Under the pieces are notes generated by a model, which saw only the letters and a program-made list of their open reading frames with translations, was not told the origin of the DNA and made no database searches. This document shows positions 1 to 48,867 of a stretch of DNA of 52,980 nucleotides, piece by piece. Source of the DNA: Desulfotomaculum sp. (lineage in GTDB: Bacteria; Bacillota; Desulfotomaculia; Desulfotomaculales; Desulfallaceae); contig JAENYQ010000016.1 of assembly GCA_016841675.1 (NCBI GenBank), positions 1 through 52,980 on the forward strand. Direction: 5' to 3'. Made by a program: the position numbers and the translations under genes. The stretch's first letter is position 1. Each line of letters begins with the position of its first letter.

Positions 1-102
1 TTCGCTGCGCTCAGAATGACAGGCTTAAAAGGTTCTTCAATTCTTGTATTCATAGAAATGACACGACGCTGTACCACTTACTGAGTTAACGGTATAACCA
101 TG
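1..102 (+). repeat. MITE-like element copy 1 (right part, cut by window edge)
   Basis: The stretch matches the right half of the elements at 18445, 25773, 28133 and 46542. It has the inner motif ttcgctgcgctcagaatgac, then the right end cttactgagttaacggtat and the terminal CATG at 99-102. The left half and its target duplication lie outside the window. It has no coding capacity. Confidence 0.85.
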
Positions 103-2248: not shown

Positions 2249-2508
2249 TTCAGTATTTTAGAATTAAGTAGTCAGGATTTAGAATGTCCCAAGACATGCT
2301 TCCATTCCGCTTTGCTACGTTTACAGGAAACGTTTTTATGAAACCGCAAGCACAAACAATTGCGCTTCTGCCATGCTATTAAGTCTTTAAAGAAAGGGGA
2401 CACACCTCAGATTTCAGATATTTCTTTGAGGTCGAGGAATGTCCCCAATTTATGTTTAGCCGGTTCTTTCATTCTGACTCCTGATTTCTGACTCCTGACT
2501 CCTGAGTA
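2249..2508. repeat. Non-coding element bounded by AGTCAGG-type heptamers, copy A
   Basis: The right end (2471-2508) holds several units of TCTGACTCCTGA. The left end (about 2249-2290) is a degenerate inverted match with agtagtcagg. The interior holds a GGGGACACACCTC ... GAGGAATGTCCCC hairpin (2395-2450) of the REP-like family. It fills nearly all of the iscS-iscU gap and ends 1 nt before the iscS stop codon. No gene was seen in 2203-2509. Confidence 0.6.
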
Positions 2509-2509
2509 G

Positions 2510-3739
2510 TTATACCTGCCTCTGACAGGAATCGCTGGCCTTACAGGACACACAGTCACTTTCCATGGCAAACTCATTTTCCTGGTCCAGGGGCGACATG
2601 GCCCTAAGCCGTTCCACGATGGGCGGCATTACTTCCATAAAGCTATCAATGTCTTCGGGCGTATTATCACGCCCCAGGGTGATGCGAATGGAACCGTGAG
2701 CCAATTCATGGGGGATGCCCATAGCCAGCAGAACGTGGGATGGTTCAAGGGAACCGGATGTACAGGCTGACCCGCTTGATGCCGCGAACCCTTTCATATC
2801 CAGGCTGAGCAGCATTGATTCACCTTCAATATATTCAAAGGTAAAACTGGCATGGTTGGGCAGACGCATGGTCGGATGGCCGGTTAATCTGGTATTGGGG
2901 ATTCTATCCATAACTTCTTTAATTAATTTATCCCGCAATCCGGTCAGGTAAGCGGGTTCTTGATCCAGATCCCGGACTGCCAATTCGCAGGCTTTTCCCA
3001 TGGCAATAATGCCGGGGACATTTTCGGTGCCCGAACGGCGCAGTTTCTCCTGAGCTCCGCCATGGAACAGTGATTGTCTCCAACGGGTGCCTTTACGGAT
3101 ATACAGGGCGCCAACACCTTTGGGCCCGTATATCTTATGAGCGCTGATAGTTAACAGGTCTATGCCCAGGTCGTTCACGTCAACAGGAATTTTGCCCAGG
3201 GTCTGCACCGCGTCGGTGTGGAATGTGATACCCTTGCTCTTGACCAAGGCGGCCAGTTCCTTAATGGGCTGAATTGTACCCATTTCGTTGTTGGCGTGCA
3301 TGATGGTAACCAGGATGGTCTTGTCCGTTATAGCATTGGCCAGATCATCAATGTCAACCATACCGTGCTTGTCCACCGGCAGGATGGTGACGGTAAAACC
3401 CTGTTTACCCAGCGCCTTAACGGTGTTCAGTACAGCGTGGTGTTCCACGGCAGATGTGATGATGTGATTGCCGCGGTTTTTATTTATCATGGCTATACCG
3501 TGGATAGCCATGTTATCGGACTCAGTGCCGCCACTGGTAAAAACAATTTCGTTGGCCTGGGCGCCGATGGCCCGGGCTACTTTTTCACGGGCTTCTTCAA
3601 TGGCTTTTCTGACCACCCGGCCAAAGTAGTGCACGCTGGTGGGGTTGCCGAAAAAATCGGTCTGAAATTTCTGCATCTCTTCAACAACTTCCGGACGTAC
3701 CGGCGTAGTGGCGCTATGGTCGAAGTATACTCTTTGCAA
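2510..3739 (-). CDS. iscS: Cysteine desulfurase IscS/NifS
   Basis: This PLP enzyme converts cysteine to alanine and carries the sulfur as a persulfide for Fe-S assembly and tRNA thiolation. The PLP lysine is K202 in SAHKIYGPKG, and the catalytic Cys is C326 in the SGSACTSG loop. The HTDAVQ segment that contacts PLP is also present. At 409 aa it is slightly long because of a C-terminal tail with three extra Cys (SDCVSCKASDSC), whose role is unknown. The start is TTG with an AAAGGAGGAG ribosome-binding site. It lies 78 bp after iscR and upstream of iscU and mnmA. Confidence 0.97.
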   Translation of the reverse strand: MQRVYFDHSATTPVRPEVVEEMQKFQTDFFGNPTSVHYFGRVVRKAIEEAREKVARAIGAQANEIVFTSGGTESDNMAIHGIAMINKNRGNHIITSAVEHHAVLNTVKALGKQGFTVTILPVDKHGMVDIDDLANAITDKTILVTIMHANNEMGTIQPIKELAALVKSKGITFHTDAVQTLGKIPVDVNDLGIDLLTISAHKIYGPKGVGALYIRKGTRWRQSLFHGGAQEKLRRSGTENVPGIIAMGKACELAVRDLDQEPAYLTGLRDKLIKEVMDRIPNTRLTGHPTMRLPNHASFTFEYIEGESMLLSLDMKGFAASSGSACTSGSLEPSHVLLAMGIPHELAHGSIRITLGRDNTPEDIDSFMEVMPPIVERLRAMSPLDQENEFAMESDCVSCKASDSCQRQV

Positions 3740-18191: not shown

Positions 18192-18756
18192 TATTCCTCC
18201 GTCTTTGTAACTGCTCTATTGATATAATTGGGTACATTGCCTTCCATCAATTGGAGATATTCCTTCGCGTTCATTAAACGATGTGTGTCTCGTTCCGTTA
18301 TATTGATTATAATTGAGGGTTTAGTTAATGGCAATGAATACCGGACCATTGGAACCATCTAAAAACTATTTACACTACTTATTGACAAATTGCAATTATT
18401 GAAGTGAGCGTAACATTAATATGCTTTTTAAGCCAATAACAGGACATGATTATTCCCTTTACTCAGTAATCCCCATCGATGAGATAAACATTTTTAATAA
18501 ACAATTGTGCATTGCGGGGTGAAGCTGTCATCCTGAGCGTTAGCGAAGGATCTAGATTCTTCACTTCGTTCAGAATGACACGACGCTGTACCACTTACTG
18601 AGTTAACGGTATAACTATGTAACAGGATTTTATTGTCTTATGTCGAAATAAAAATCAAAATGCAAAAATGGCAAGTGCCCACGCTTATTGCGTGGGTTCT
18701 GACGTTATAAATCGATTCGACATATTTCTATTTTCTTCTCGGGAGGACCTGCCAAA
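18192..18756. other. Divergent intergenic region recJ/comM (565 bp)
   Basis: It holds MITE-like copy 2 (18445-18619) and, nearer comM, a compact hairpin cccacg/cgtggg (18678-18696) followed by an AT-rich stretch. No gene is seen, and no -35/-10 pair could be assigned with confidence. Confidence 0.6.
18437..18627 (+). repeat. MITE-like element copy 2 with 8-bp direct repeats
   Basis: The element (18445-18619, 175 bp) starts catgattattccctttact and ends gagttaacggtataactatg. The ends are imperfect inverted repeats sharing ACTCAGTAA. It is flanked on both sides by taacagga (18437-18444 and 18620-18627), a perfect 8-bp target duplication. Inside is a second dyad, ctgtcatcctgagcg ... ttcagaatgacac. 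Confidence 0.9.
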
Positions 18757-25663: not shown

Positions 25664-26135
25664 AACCAACCTCCCGTTTAGCAATTGTATGTTATTGTCT
25701 GTGTTTAATTATAACACGAAATTTAATAATTGTAGATAAACGCAGCTCCATCGCTTTGCGTTAATTAATTTTCATGGTTATACCGTTAACTCAGTAAGTG
25801 GTACAGCGTCGTGTCTGAACGAAGTGAAGAATCTAGATCCTTCGCTAACGCTCTTAGATGACAGCTTCACCCCGCAATGCACAATTGTTTATTAAAAATG
25901 TTTATCTCATCGATGGAGATTACTGAGTAAAGGGAATAATCATGTTAATTTTTAATCATCATATTGATTTTAATTGTCAAAATTAATTGTGAACAAGCAT
26001 ATTAGTCTAATAAGTAAATTTCAATTTACTAGCAATTCTAACAATGTATAATGTTTTATTTCAACCGGCAGGAATCTGGTTTCCTTTTAAGAATATTTTG
26101 TTAATAGACTAAATCATTCGAGGAGGTAGTCGACC
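25664..26135. other. Intergenic region moxR/crotonase fragment
   Basis: It holds MITE-like copy 3 and then about 180 bp of very AT-rich DNA leading to an AGGAGG ribosome-binding site at about 26120-26125. It presumably contains divergent promoters for moxR and the former crotonase gene. No other gene is seen. Confidence 0.5.
25765..25952 (-). repeat. MITE-like element copy 3 (inverted) with 8-bp direct repeats
   Basis: The element (25773-25944, 172 bp) is in the opposite orientation to the other copies. It begins catggttataccgttaactc and ends gagtaaagggaataatcatg. Both sides carry ttaatttt (25765-25772 and 25945-25952), a perfect 8-bp duplication. It marks the left border of the accessory island. 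Confidence 0.9.
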
Positions 26136-27997: not shown

Positions 27998-28439
27998 ACT
28001 TCTTTTCACCCGGCCCCTTATATTTGTCAATCATGTATGCAATTAGTATGACATTGTTGGATTATTGAAGCAAGCCCGAAAGGAAATTATCGTTATTGTG
28101 TCGAATTTATGCCTAAAATCAGTTTTCTTAATCATGATTATTCCCTTTACTCAGTAATCCCCATGGATGAGATAAACATTTTTAATTAACAATTGTGCAC
28201 CGCGGGGGGAGAACTGTCATCTTGAGCGTAGCGAAGGATCTAATCTTTAAGATTCTTCGCTGCGCTCAGAATGACAGATTCGTTGTATTCATAGCAATGA
28301 CAGGCTTAATGACAAGGTTCTTCATTTCGTTGTATTCATAGCAATGACACGACGCTCTACCACTTACTGAGTTAACGGTATAACCATGTTTTTAATTTTA
28401 AACTGCATGGATATGAAATGAAAAAGGAGCAATAAGATA
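27998..28439. other. Divergent promoter region of the island
   Basis: It holds MITE copy 4 (28133-28388) and short AT-rich flanks. A ribosome-binding site AAAGGAG lies 11 nt before the 28440 start. The promoters for both arms probably lie in the flanks or inside the MITE. Confidence 0.5.
28125..28396 (+). repeat. MITE-like element copy 4 (longest, 256 bp)
   Basis: The element (28133-28388) has the standard ends catgattattccctttact and gttaacggtataaccatg. Flanks are ttcttaat and tttttaat (7 of 8 identical). It is longer than the others because an internal unit (cgttgtattcatagcaatga) is present twice. Confidence 0.88.
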
Positions 28440-40336: not shown

Positions 40337-40783
40337 TTACTCCCTGCCGCTTTCCCACTGGTAGTCCTTACGCAACGGGTACCCGTCAAACTTGTCGTCC
40401 AGCAGAATACGCTTCAGGTTGGGATGGCCGGTAAATACAATACCCAACAAATCATAAACTTCCCGCTCCTGCCAGTTGGCTCCCCCCCAGACGGGAAAAA
40501 CCGACGGCATTTCGGGATTATCCCTGCTGATAACGGTCTTAACCATTACCGTATAGCCCTTGCCAATGGAATTAAGATTATAAACGACTTCGAGCTTGGT
40601 TTCATCCGGGTAATCGCATGCAGTAAGGTTAGTCAGATAGTCAAACTCAAATTCATCCTTTAATCCCTGCATTGATTCCAAGAGCTTGTCGACAGGAACA
40701 ATAATGGTCTGTTGTTCGTTTACTTCAACGTAAGCATACTTTTGTTTGATCTCCTCTACCGGCGCTGCTGTTATTTCTTTCAT
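40337..40783 (-). CDS. nuoC: NADH-quinone oxidoreductase-like subunit C (NuoC)
   Basis: NuoC is the 30-kDa-type structural subunit that packs against NuoD. The signature [20 protein letters not shown] followed by [19 protein letters not shown] is diagnostic. At 148 aa it is short compared with Escherichia-type NuoC parts but typical of 11-subunit complexes. It overlaps nuoB by 4 bp (ATGA), so the two are translationally coupled. Confidence 0.96.
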
Positions 40784-41352
40784 TGCCCGGCCACCACCTT
40801 ACGCTTGTTGAGGATTTTGTCCTTAAGCATGATGAATCCTTCCAATATGGCGTCGGGCCTGGGCGGGCAGCCGGGAATGTATACGTCTACCGGCACCACT
40901 TTGTTGGCACCGGGCACCACATAGTATGAGTCTACGAAGGGACCGCCGGAGATAGCGCAACTGCCGACCGCAATACACCATTTAGGTTCCGGCATTTGTT
41001 CCCACAGGCGCAGTACAAACGGCGCCGCTTTCTTGGTTATGGTTCCGGCAACCACCATTACATCGGCCTGGCGAGCGCTGCCGCGCATAACCTCGTACCC
41101 AAAACGGGACAGGTCATAGCGTGGGCCATTTGCTCCCATCAGCGCCTCAATGGCGCAACAGGCCAAACCGAATCCCAGCGGCCAAATGGAGTGAGCCCGG
41201 ACTAGATTCAGTATTTTTTCCAATGGAGCCGCCGAAATAACTCTTTTTACTTCGTACATGTTGTGGTAGTCCGGGTTGGTCCCGAAGTATTCGGGGGCCC
41301 AAATTCCGCTTTTTGCTGTTTCAATTCTTGATTTTTCTTTGTTTACTTCCAT
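40780..41352 (-). CDS. nuoB: NADH-quinone oxidoreductase-like subunit B (NuoB)
   Basis: NuoB binds the terminal cluster N2 that reduces quinone. The four ligand Cys are present: the tandem pair in [12 protein letters not shown], then VGSCAISGG and [12 protein letters not shown] at 41352 ([11 protein letters not shown]) has GGAAGGTG upstream and overlaps the end of nuoA by 10 bp; the longer frame to 41382 is less likely. Length is about 190 aa. The N-terminal 45 residues are an extension before the core. Confidence 0.97.
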
Positions 41353-44464: not shown

Positions 44465-44551
44465 GGTATTCAGAATTCAGGAGTCAGGAGTCAGAATTCA
44501 AATGAGCTAGACATAAAACTATTTTATTCTGACTCCTGACTACTGACTCCT
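44465..44551. repeat. AGTCAGG-type element copy C
   Basis: The left end (44465-44499) reads cagaattcaggagtcaggag and the right end (44524-44551) is the inverse, ttctgactcctgactactga. The interior is only about 24 bp. It sits in the rplS-lepB gap, next to the rplS terminator. Confidence 0.75.
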
Positions 44552-44570
44552 ATATCGTTACAAATTATTT

Positions 44571-46533: not shown

Positions 46534-46740
46534 AAATTTATCATGATTATTCCCTTTACTCAGTAATCCCCGTTGGGGAGAGCTGTCATCCTGAGCGTTA
46601 GCGAAGGATCTGGGCTTTAAGATTCTTCGCTGCGCTCAGAATGACAGGCTTAATGACAAGGTTTTTCACTTCGTTGTATTTATAGCAATGACACGACGCT
46701 ATACCATTTACTGAGTTAACGGTATAACCATAAAATTTAT
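46534..46740 (+). repeat. MITE-like element copy 5 with 8-bp direct repeats
   Basis: The element (46542-46732, 191 bp) begins catgattattccctttact and ends gttaacggtataaccata. It is flanked on both sides by aaatttat (46534-46541 and 46733-46740), a perfect 8-bp duplication. It lacks the inner gagataaacatttttaa segment of copies 2 to 4. It splits khpA from rimM inside a conserved operon. Confidence 0.9.
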
Positions 46741-47270: not shown

Positions 47271-47299
47271 AGTGTTCACCTCCTCAAAGTAGTATAAAA

Positions 47300-47506
47300 G
47301 TATTCAGTATTCAGTAGTCAGGAGTCAGTAGTCAGTAGTCAGTAGTCAGTAGTCAGAACGCTATAGGATGATGTCTGTTCTTATTGTCCTAAATTTATCA
47401 CTTTAATCCTGCATTCAATATTTTCAAGTATCAGAATTCATAATAACGGTACGATAGGTCGTTCTCTTATTCTGACTAATGAATTCTGACTACTGACTAC
47501 TGGTGT
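47300..47506. repeat. AGTCAGT-type element copy D with tandem heptamers
   Basis: The left end (47300-47356) is a tandem run of AGTCAGT/AGTCAGG units (about six copies). The right end (47469-47503) is an inverted run, ttctgactactgactactgg. The interior is about 110 bp of AT-rich DNA without a gene. It ends against the ffh stop codon. Confidence 0.8.
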
Positions 47507-48867
47507 TAGAATGGCGAATTCTTCCCTAAACCAAAAGGATTCTTCATTTTACCCTTTTTAATGTTCTTTTCCATGCCTACCAACTGGCGCATCATCTTAC
47601 GGGTTTGCTCAAACTGTTTAAGCAGGCGGTTAACCTCCTGCACCGTTGTTCCGCTGCCCTTGGCCACGCGCCGGCGCCTGCTGCCGTTTATTTCCTGGGG
47701 GTTCTGCCTTTCCCAAGGGGTCATGGAACTGATGATAGCTTCCACAAAGACCAGGTCTTTCTCGTCTATCTGGAGGTCCTTCATTTTTTTCATGTTTCCC
47801 AGACCCGGAATCATGCCCAAAACCTGGTCCAGGGGTCCCATTTTTTTCACCTGGTTCATGTGTTCCATAAAGTCATCCAGGGTGAAATCCATGCTTTTGA
47901 TGCGTTTATTTAACTTCTCCACCTGTTCGGCATCAAAATTGGCCTGGGCTTTTTCAATCAGGGTGAGCATATCGCCCATGCCCAAGATGCGGTCGGCCAT
48001 GCGGTCGGGATGAAATACCTCCAGGGCGTCCAATTTTTCGCCCATACCGGCAAATTTAATGGGGCAACCGGTAACGGCTTTAACAGAGAGGGCTGCTCCA
48101 CCGCGGGTATCCCCGTCCAATTTGGTAAGTACCACGCCGGTAAGAGACAGGTTCTCATTAAAGGTTTTGGCCACGTTAACTGCATCCTGACCGGTCATGG
48201 AATCAACGACCAACAGTATTTCTTGGGGTTTTACAATACTGGCCATGTTACGCAACTCGCCCATCAAGTCTTCGTCGATATGCAGCCTGCCGGCAGTATC
48301 GATAATCACCAAATCGTGTCCTTCCCGACGGGCCTGTTCTAGCGCTGCTTTGGCGATGTCAGGAGGAGACACCTGGTCACCCATGCTGAAAACCGGGACA
48401 TTAAGTTGGTCGCCCAGCACCTGCAGTTGTTTGATGGCGGCAGGTCTGTATACGTCTGCGGCCACTAATTCCGGGCGCCTTCCCTGGCGGCGCATCAGGT
48501 TGGCCAGTTTGGCGGAGGTGGTGGTTTTGCCGGCACCGTGCAAGCCCACCATCATAATCACCGTGGGTGGTGCCGGGGCCAGGTTTATTTTGCTCTGGGT
48601 GCCGCCCATCAGAGCAGCTAATTCATCTCTGACGATTTTAATTACTTGCTGGGCGGGGGTAAGGCTCTGCAACACATCAGAGCCCACTGCCCGTTCCCGG
48701 ATGCGGGTGATAAAATCTTTAACCACCATGAAGTTAACGTCGGCGCTGATTAGTGCACGGCGCACTTCTTTTAGTGCCAGGTCTACGTCTTCTTCGGTCA
48801 GCCTGCCTTTGCCGCGTAATTTTTTAAAGGTTTCCTGGAGCCTTTCAGCGAGTCCTGAAAAAACCAT
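47506..48867 (-). CDS. ffh: Signal recognition particle protein Ffh (SRP54)
   Basis: Ffh is the SRP GTPase that targets nascent membrane proteins to SecYEG. The N domain leads into the G domain with VGLHGAGKTTTSAKLA, DTAGRLHIDED and LTKLDGDTRGG. The methionine-rich M domain (MGPLDQVLGMIPGL, GMEKNIKKGKMKNPFGLG) binds 4.5S RNA. In the P-loop, GLHGAGKTT replaces the commoner GLQGSGKTT. Length is 453 aa. It follows ylxM with a 4-nt gap. Confidence 0.98.
   Translation of the reverse strand: MVFSGLAERLQETFKKLRGKGRLTEEDVDLALKEVRRALISADVNFMVVKDFITRIRERAVGSDVLQSLTPAQQVIKIVRDELAALMGGTQSKINLAPAPPTVIMMVGLHGAGKTTTSAKLANLMRRQGRRPELVAADVYRPAAIKQLQVLGDQLNVPVFSMGDQVSPPDIAKAALEQARREGHDLVIIDTAGRLHIDEDLMGELRNMASIVKPQEILLVVDSMTGQDAVNVAKTFNENLSLTGVVLTKLDGDTRGGAALSVKAVTGCPIKFAGMGEKLDALEVFHPDRMADRILGMGDMLTLIEKAQANFDAEQVEKLNKRIKSMDFTLDDFMEHMNQVKKMGPLDQVLGMIPGLGNMKKMKDLQIDEKDLVFVEAIISSMTPWERQNPQEINGSRRRRVAKGSGTTVQEVNRLLKQFEQTRKMMRQLVGMEKNIKKGKMKNPFGLGKNSPF

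Follow-up and report, generated by a model that had tools for sequence, protein, structure and literature searches.

The window, 52,980 nucleotides in length, comprises the entire contig C47 of a 3.84-Mb draft genome of Desulfotomaculum sp. that consists of 162 contigs. It contains five copies of a short element with facing terminal inverted repeats. Copy 2 was read from the sequence, and the further copies were located by repeat search and then read directly. The copies and their parts are as follows.

1..102, + strand: copy 1, truncated by the contig start; its right end is 78-102
18437..18444, no strand: left target duplication of copy 2, TAACAGGA (sequence read)
18445..18619, + strand: copy 2, 175 bp (sequence read)
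18445..18469, + strand: left terminal inverted repeat of copy 2 (CATGATTATTCCCTTTACTCAGTAA), which resembles IS1595-type left ends
18526..18580, + strand: palindromic core of copy 2, 55 bp (TGTCATCC...AGAATGACA), free-standing elsewhere too
18595..18619, - strand: right terminal inverted repeat of copy 2 (inward CATAGTTATACCGTTAACTCAGTAA), which resembles the IS1595 right end
18620..18627, no strand: right target duplication of copy 2, TAACAGGA (sequence read)
25765..25772 and 25945-25952, no strand: target duplication of copy 3, TTAATTTT, exact (sequence read)
25773..25944, - strand: copy 3, 172 bp, in inverted orientation (repeat search and direct reading)
28133..28388, + strand: copy 4, 256 bp, whose interior is longer; its duplication matches at 7 of 8 bases (28125-28132, 28389-28396)
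46542..46732, + strand: copy 5, 191 bp, flanked by an exact AAATTTAT duplication (46534-46541, 46733-46740)

The span singled out by the sequence-only reading, 18437-18627, is exactly copy 2 together with both TAACAGGA duplications, and rereading confirmed the exact 8-bp duplications at copies 2, 3, and 5 and the 7 matching bases of 8 at copy 4. The ends had been described as beginning with CATG. Facing 25-bp ends were confirmed, but their tip varies, the right tip being CATA in copy 2 and TATG in copy 5. The window copies have ordinary genes as neighbors: RecJ-like and Mg-chelatase-like genes at copy 2, AAA ATPase and helicase genes at copy 3, the same helicase gene at copy 4 along with a gene whose product has no Pfam match, and a RimM gene at copy 5. 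Repeats of a CTGACTCCTGACTACTGA type are also scattered in the window (2467-2513, 44522-44568, 47298-47349, and 47465-47511); similar runs lie beside palindromes in the sister genome G002 and inside one element of another genome, G070 (L120).

A degenerate pattern for both ends, searched with up to 3 mismatches, had 85 + 78 matches in the 3.84-Mb genome, and its reversed control had none. The two ends resemble each other without being identical: the left is CATGATTATTCCCTTTACTCAGTAA and the right, in the inward direction, CATGGTTATACCGTTAACTCAGTAA. Searched separately with up to 3 mismatches, left-like ends numbered 73 and right-like ends 89 (reversed control, 0 for both), and the distinct end places, 154 in total, were spread over many contigs. 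Pairing neighboring ends that face each other at most 4 kb apart yielded 37 copies of 136 to 369 bp, one of which (C116_17274) has a left-type score at both ends. An 8-bp duplication was exact at 25 of the 37 pairs, and at least 7 of 8 bases matched at 31; the outcome that the sequence-only reading had named as speaking against it, genome copies without duplications or with variable ends, was thus not what was found. When the right flanks were redealt among the copies 10,000 times, the mean was 0.73 for exact duplications and 1.84 for those of at least 7 of 8 bases, with maxima of 5 and 8. The six pairs under 7 of 8 were C28_17141, C70_33404, and C76_20515 (6 of 8 each), C42_14982 and C102_3296 (5 of 8 each), and C28_41739 (1 of 8).

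The exact duplications were 94.5% AT, compared with 58.4% in the flanks, and showed a symmetrical base preference (A before TT, AA before T), with A|TTWWWTAA|T as the preferred target. None of the 37 insertion sites lay within an open reading frame (ORF) of at least 100 amino acids, a site being counted as inside when it was more than 15 bp from the ORF end. The 37 facing pairs, the excess of duplications over the shuffle, and the absence of such ORF sites together establish a real family of miniature inverted-repeat transposable elements (MITEs), as first proposed from the window, and they support the proposal that its copies arose by real transposition. The family has terminal inverted repeats, duplications of constant length, dispersed copies, and a small size without a transposase gene; the elements are too short for a transposase gene of any family.

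Across the 15 copies of 172 to 178 bp, the consensus is 177 bp long rather than the 175 bp given earlier, and the mean pairwise identity is 94.9% (range, 90.3 to 98.9%). Among the five 225-bp copies, four are 99.1 to 100% alike, and the fifth is 96.4 to 96.9% identical to those. Given this high identity among copies, their movement was probably not ancient. The interior is modular, and longer forms gain spacer or repeat segments. The shortest form, of 135 to 136 bp, consists of both ends, short linkers, and the 55-bp palindrome; it occurs as 1 of the 37 pairs here and at two loci of Peptococcaceae bacterium BRH_c8a, where the duplications match at 8 of 8 and 7 of 8 bases. At C42:5074 and C63:6750 (inward), a different repeat, with GTAGGGAACGGCC...GGCGTTCCCTAC-like arms, comes after the right end and may be an additional kind of interior or a neighbor.

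Folded as RNA, one strand of copy 2 gave -50.9 kcal/mol (z, -4.66) and the other -52.2 kcal/mol (z, -3.74). A search of copy 2 against Rfam returned 2 matches at an E value of at most 1, both far under the gathering score, and none that reached it. In RNA, the interior palindrome would turn the element into a stable hairpin that may affect neighboring transcripts, and for this modeled hairpin a role at transcript ends is possible.

Under the 3-mismatch rule, 80 ends remained unpaired. Of these, 35 are no more than 400 bp from a contig end and are directed off the contig. Since unpaired ends thus coincide with 35 of the 324 contig ends, the MITE probably helped to break the draft assembly. The remaining unpaired ends include copies with a decayed second end and sites beside unrelated sequence. 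At C28:41939-42023, a left end adjoins a second left end that is diverged; here one copy apparently lies next to or inside another.

Empty sites were sought in G002. Between syntenic blocks, the region of copy 3 measures 65 bp in G002 and 328 bp in the window, and that of copy 2 measures about 1.8 kb in G002 and 397 bp in the window. Divergence of the intergenic DNA between the two genomes was too great for an exact empty site to be shown in G002, including an exact join at copy 3.

The source genome contains two matches to the IS1595-family transposase domain PF12762, one in an intact gene on C50 and one in a relic on C17. The relic is a transposase 3' end (PF12762 at 40624-40713; 28.1 bits, with a cutoff of 27) that runs into a right-type end, CATGATTATACCGTTAGCCCAGTAA, at 40784-40808, which matches the MITE end at 22 of 25 positions. 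Inspection of the ORF list by eye had shown only ordinary genes at C17:40784, and it was the PF12762 search that revealed the relic. Near C71:2250 and C17:65407/69289, inspection of the ORF lists by eye likewise showed ordinary genes and no recognizable transposase. The visible end of the intact C50 gene is 5 mismatches from the degenerate pattern, and the PF12762 search found no intact transposase with matching ends in the assembly. On C50 (L143), the intact gene is followed by a decayed partial copy, and the visible ends there, of a CATGAGTATCAAGTTAGCTC type, are diverged from the MITE ends. The search for a full-length insertion sequence (IS) with the same ends, suggested by the sequence-only reading, thus found no intact parent here; relatives have IS1595 elements with similar ends.

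Of the 113 genomes searched in the order, 10, including the source genome, have the end pattern at up to 2 mismatches (the class-level search covered the same 113 genomes), and a narrower end pattern was present in 3 of 120 relatives. By protein search, IS1595 relatives are present in 16 of the 113 genomes, again including the source genome. G040 (C74) has an intact 1009-bp IS1595 element with ends TATGGTTATCCAGTTAGCTCAGAAA and TGTGGTTATCCAGTTAGCTCAGAAA, a duplication of 8 of 8 bases, and a protein that matches NF033547, the IS1595 family transposase. In G034 (C58), ends 684 bp apart surround a fragment of an IS1595 transposase (PF12762, 27.5 bits, slightly above the cutoff; NF033547, 116 bits) with a duplication of 6 of 8, and in G078 (C91), a 538-bp end pair surrounds a broken gene with 3 stops and has a duplication of 7 of 8. 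Another IS1595 element of G034, in pieces, starts with CATGATTATGTC and ends, read inward, with CATGATTATGCC. The right end at G034 locus L149 overlaps the end of the transposase gene, the protein match reaching its last residue inside the right end. Across the six end pairs around IS1595 matches, the duplications were 8, 7, 6, 5, 4, and 4 of 8 bases.

We compared the surroundings of 29 IS1595 matches in relatives, which are not independent, as 9 come from G034. A 25-mer matching a MITE end at 17 or more of 25 positions was found near 16 of the 29 matches, compared with 2 of 29 control stretches farther off, one of which (L167) may be the other part of the same split element. At 18 or more positions, the numbers were 13 and 1. 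Shuffles (20 per locus) never exceeded 17 of 25, a score that was reached in several loci. Among the 13 matches under 17 of 25, the ends of L161, L166, and L169 were cut by the spacer of the script and were seen in the separate end-pair analysis; the other 10 showed no end. The best match of an IS end to a MITE end in relatives was 21 of 25, and none was identical. The left and right ends of the MITE differ at positions 10 (T/A) and 13 (C/G), among others. At the G034 (C58) and G078 loci, reading by eye showed T and T at positions 10 and 13 of the left end and G or A, then G, in the right end. The G040 element does not have this left-right difference, as its two ends are nearly alike. A scan of genome_contigs for the IS-like right end gave 7 stretches, 3 with an IS1595 transposase, 2 with the MITE (135 and 136 bp), and 2 with neither, all from records labeled Peptococcaceae, Pelotomaculum, Desulfovirgula, or Desulfotomaculum.

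These data indicate, with a probability of roughly 88%, that the elements are nonautonomous MITEs in which left and right IS1595-family ends surround a palindromic interior and which would have been moved in trans by an IS1595-type transposase. The observed basis consists of the ends, the duplications, the copy number, the intergenic placement, the similar IS1595 ends in relatives, and the relic in the element's own genome. Derivation from IS1595 is also consistent with the 8-bp length of the duplications and with ends that are shared in the sense of being similar. In the proposed mechanism, a DDE transposase of the IS1595 type, acting in trans, would bind to both 25-bp ends, and insertion through an 8-bp staggered cut in AT-rich intergenic DNA, with chemistry like that of the IS1595 family, would produce the 8-bp duplications. 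The parent copy would since have decayed or been lost.

The palindrome carried inside the element as cargo also occurs independently of it. With up to 1 mismatch allowed, its arm pattern has 150 + 150 matches in the source genome; among 398 genomes sampled from the phylum, 22, including the source genome, have it. At palindrome loci from 11 of the 21 other genomes, MITE ends were found, with up to 4 mismatches allowed, at 0 of 11. Inspection by eye of 18 palindrome sites in G002, which were deliberately picked away from ends, showed neither an obvious duplication nor a visible MITE end at a distance of up to 70 bp. G002 is probably BRH_c8a, as it has the same elements at the same spacing. A 433-kb sample of the source genome, biased in that it was collected around ends, contained 147 arms at up to 3 mismatches, and 39 of them lay at least 400 bp from any end. 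The free palindromes look like parts of a larger intergenic repeat, because a conserved CCTGAAAATAGACTTT-like stretch often precedes them (C111:2029, C157:6165, C27:5259, and several of G002 L208-L225) and, in the source genome, GGTGCCGCG-type palindromes lie farther out as well. A literature search with palindrome words of 15/16 and 18 bases found no related mention.

The stand-alone palindromes at the 18 chosen sister-genome sites, together with the presence of the arm motif in 21 further genomes of the phylum sample, could suggest that the palindrome is the true mobile unit and repeatedly entered the 25-bp ends as a frame or target. We consider this improbable, since the 8-bp duplications lie at the outer ends and not at the palindrome, and the free-standing palindromes have no obvious duplications by eye.

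Still less probable is derivation from an IS4-family element, the parent that the sequence-only reading had tentatively put forward. CAT-type tips are known in some IS4 subgroups, which counts in its favor. Ends of the MITE type, in contrast, bound IS1595-family transposase genes within the order, so the suggestion lost its support and an IS4 parent was set aside; it was displaced by this positive evidence for IS1595 rather than by a search for IS4 transposases. The duplications argue in the same direction, since IS1595 members are described as usually flanked by 8-bp duplications (PMC8101967). Judged from these sequences, the parent is of the IS1595 type rather than IS4. Least probable of all is spread by recombination or segmental duplication instead of transposition, for which two identical 225-bp copies on one contig might be cited, since the flanks differ among copies, a site-specific 8-bp duplication is present at 25 of 37, and those two identical copies themselves have different duplications (TAGTTTAA and TTTTTTAA).

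In G070, which belongs to another family of the order, MITE-type ends surround a different interior, the repeat AAATTGACAGGATT...AATCCTGTCAATTT (with complement). Among 8 loci inspected by eye, L140 and L142 have duplications of 8 of 8 bases, and several others have decayed right ends. Locus L142 is a very short derivative of about 60 bp, with its 8-of-8 duplication read by eye, and may show the minimal need of the transposase. Among the 113 genomes of the order, the AAATTGACAGGATT repeat was found in 7, which belong to a single family. Of 20 loci of this repeat, 17 have no end within 350 bp at up to 5 mismatches; the others are L226 (the same element as L140), with both ends, L233, with one end at 3 mismatches, and L239, with one at 5. 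The free-standing loci of both repeats show that two unrelated free repeats sit inside IS1595-type ends. We propose tentatively, at somewhat less than even odds, that IS1595-type ends captured free palindromic repeats more than once, TGTCATCC...ATGACA in this genus and AAATTGACAGGATT...AATCCTGTCAATTT in the G070 family. The free copies could alternatively be leftovers that lost their ends; that the first palindrome is widespread without ends favors capture.

Compared with the IS1595 family (PF12762/NF033547), the MITE has similar ends, an 8-bp duplication like that of the intact G040 element, and the left-right difference at positions 10 and 13 seen at G034 (C58) and G078; in G034, the right end overlaps the end of the transposase gene. 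It differs in having a palindromic interior and no transposase gene, and no IS end is identical to its own. A MITE of Haloquadratum walsbyi linked to ISHwa6, an IS1595 element, is listed with 165 bp, 7 copies, inverted repeats of 25, and direct repeats of 8 (PMC3852290, Table 4). From that description, it resembles the present family in its small size, repeat lengths, and IS1595 assignment and differs in its archaeal host and its 7 copies. The Chunjie MITE of Geobacter uraniireducens, of 178 to 235 bp, is likewise similar by description, with variable length, terminal inverted repeats and duplications, and intergenic and partial copies, but the features described for it include no IS1595 link (PMC10969869). 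The stand-alone, REP-like palindromic repeats (TGTCATYCTGAGCG...ATGACA) share with the MITE the palindrome that sits in its interior, but at the 18 sister-genome sites they had neither IS ends within 70 bp nor obvious duplications by eye. Judged by titles and the beginnings of abstracts, the papers found on MITEs with Desulfotomaculum or Pelotomaculum were unrelated.

MITEs derived from IS1595 are a known kind, as the entry for H. walsbyi illustrates (PMC3852290), and the chimeric interior is the most interesting part of the present family. The analysis supplies a testable parent family for an abundant MITE of a Peptococcaceae/Desulfotomaculum-type lineage. The arrangement also suggests how palindromic repeats, whose mobility is unknown, might travel from one locus to another. 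If capture did occur, a transposon frame may help to spread intergenic palindromes that are otherwise immobile.
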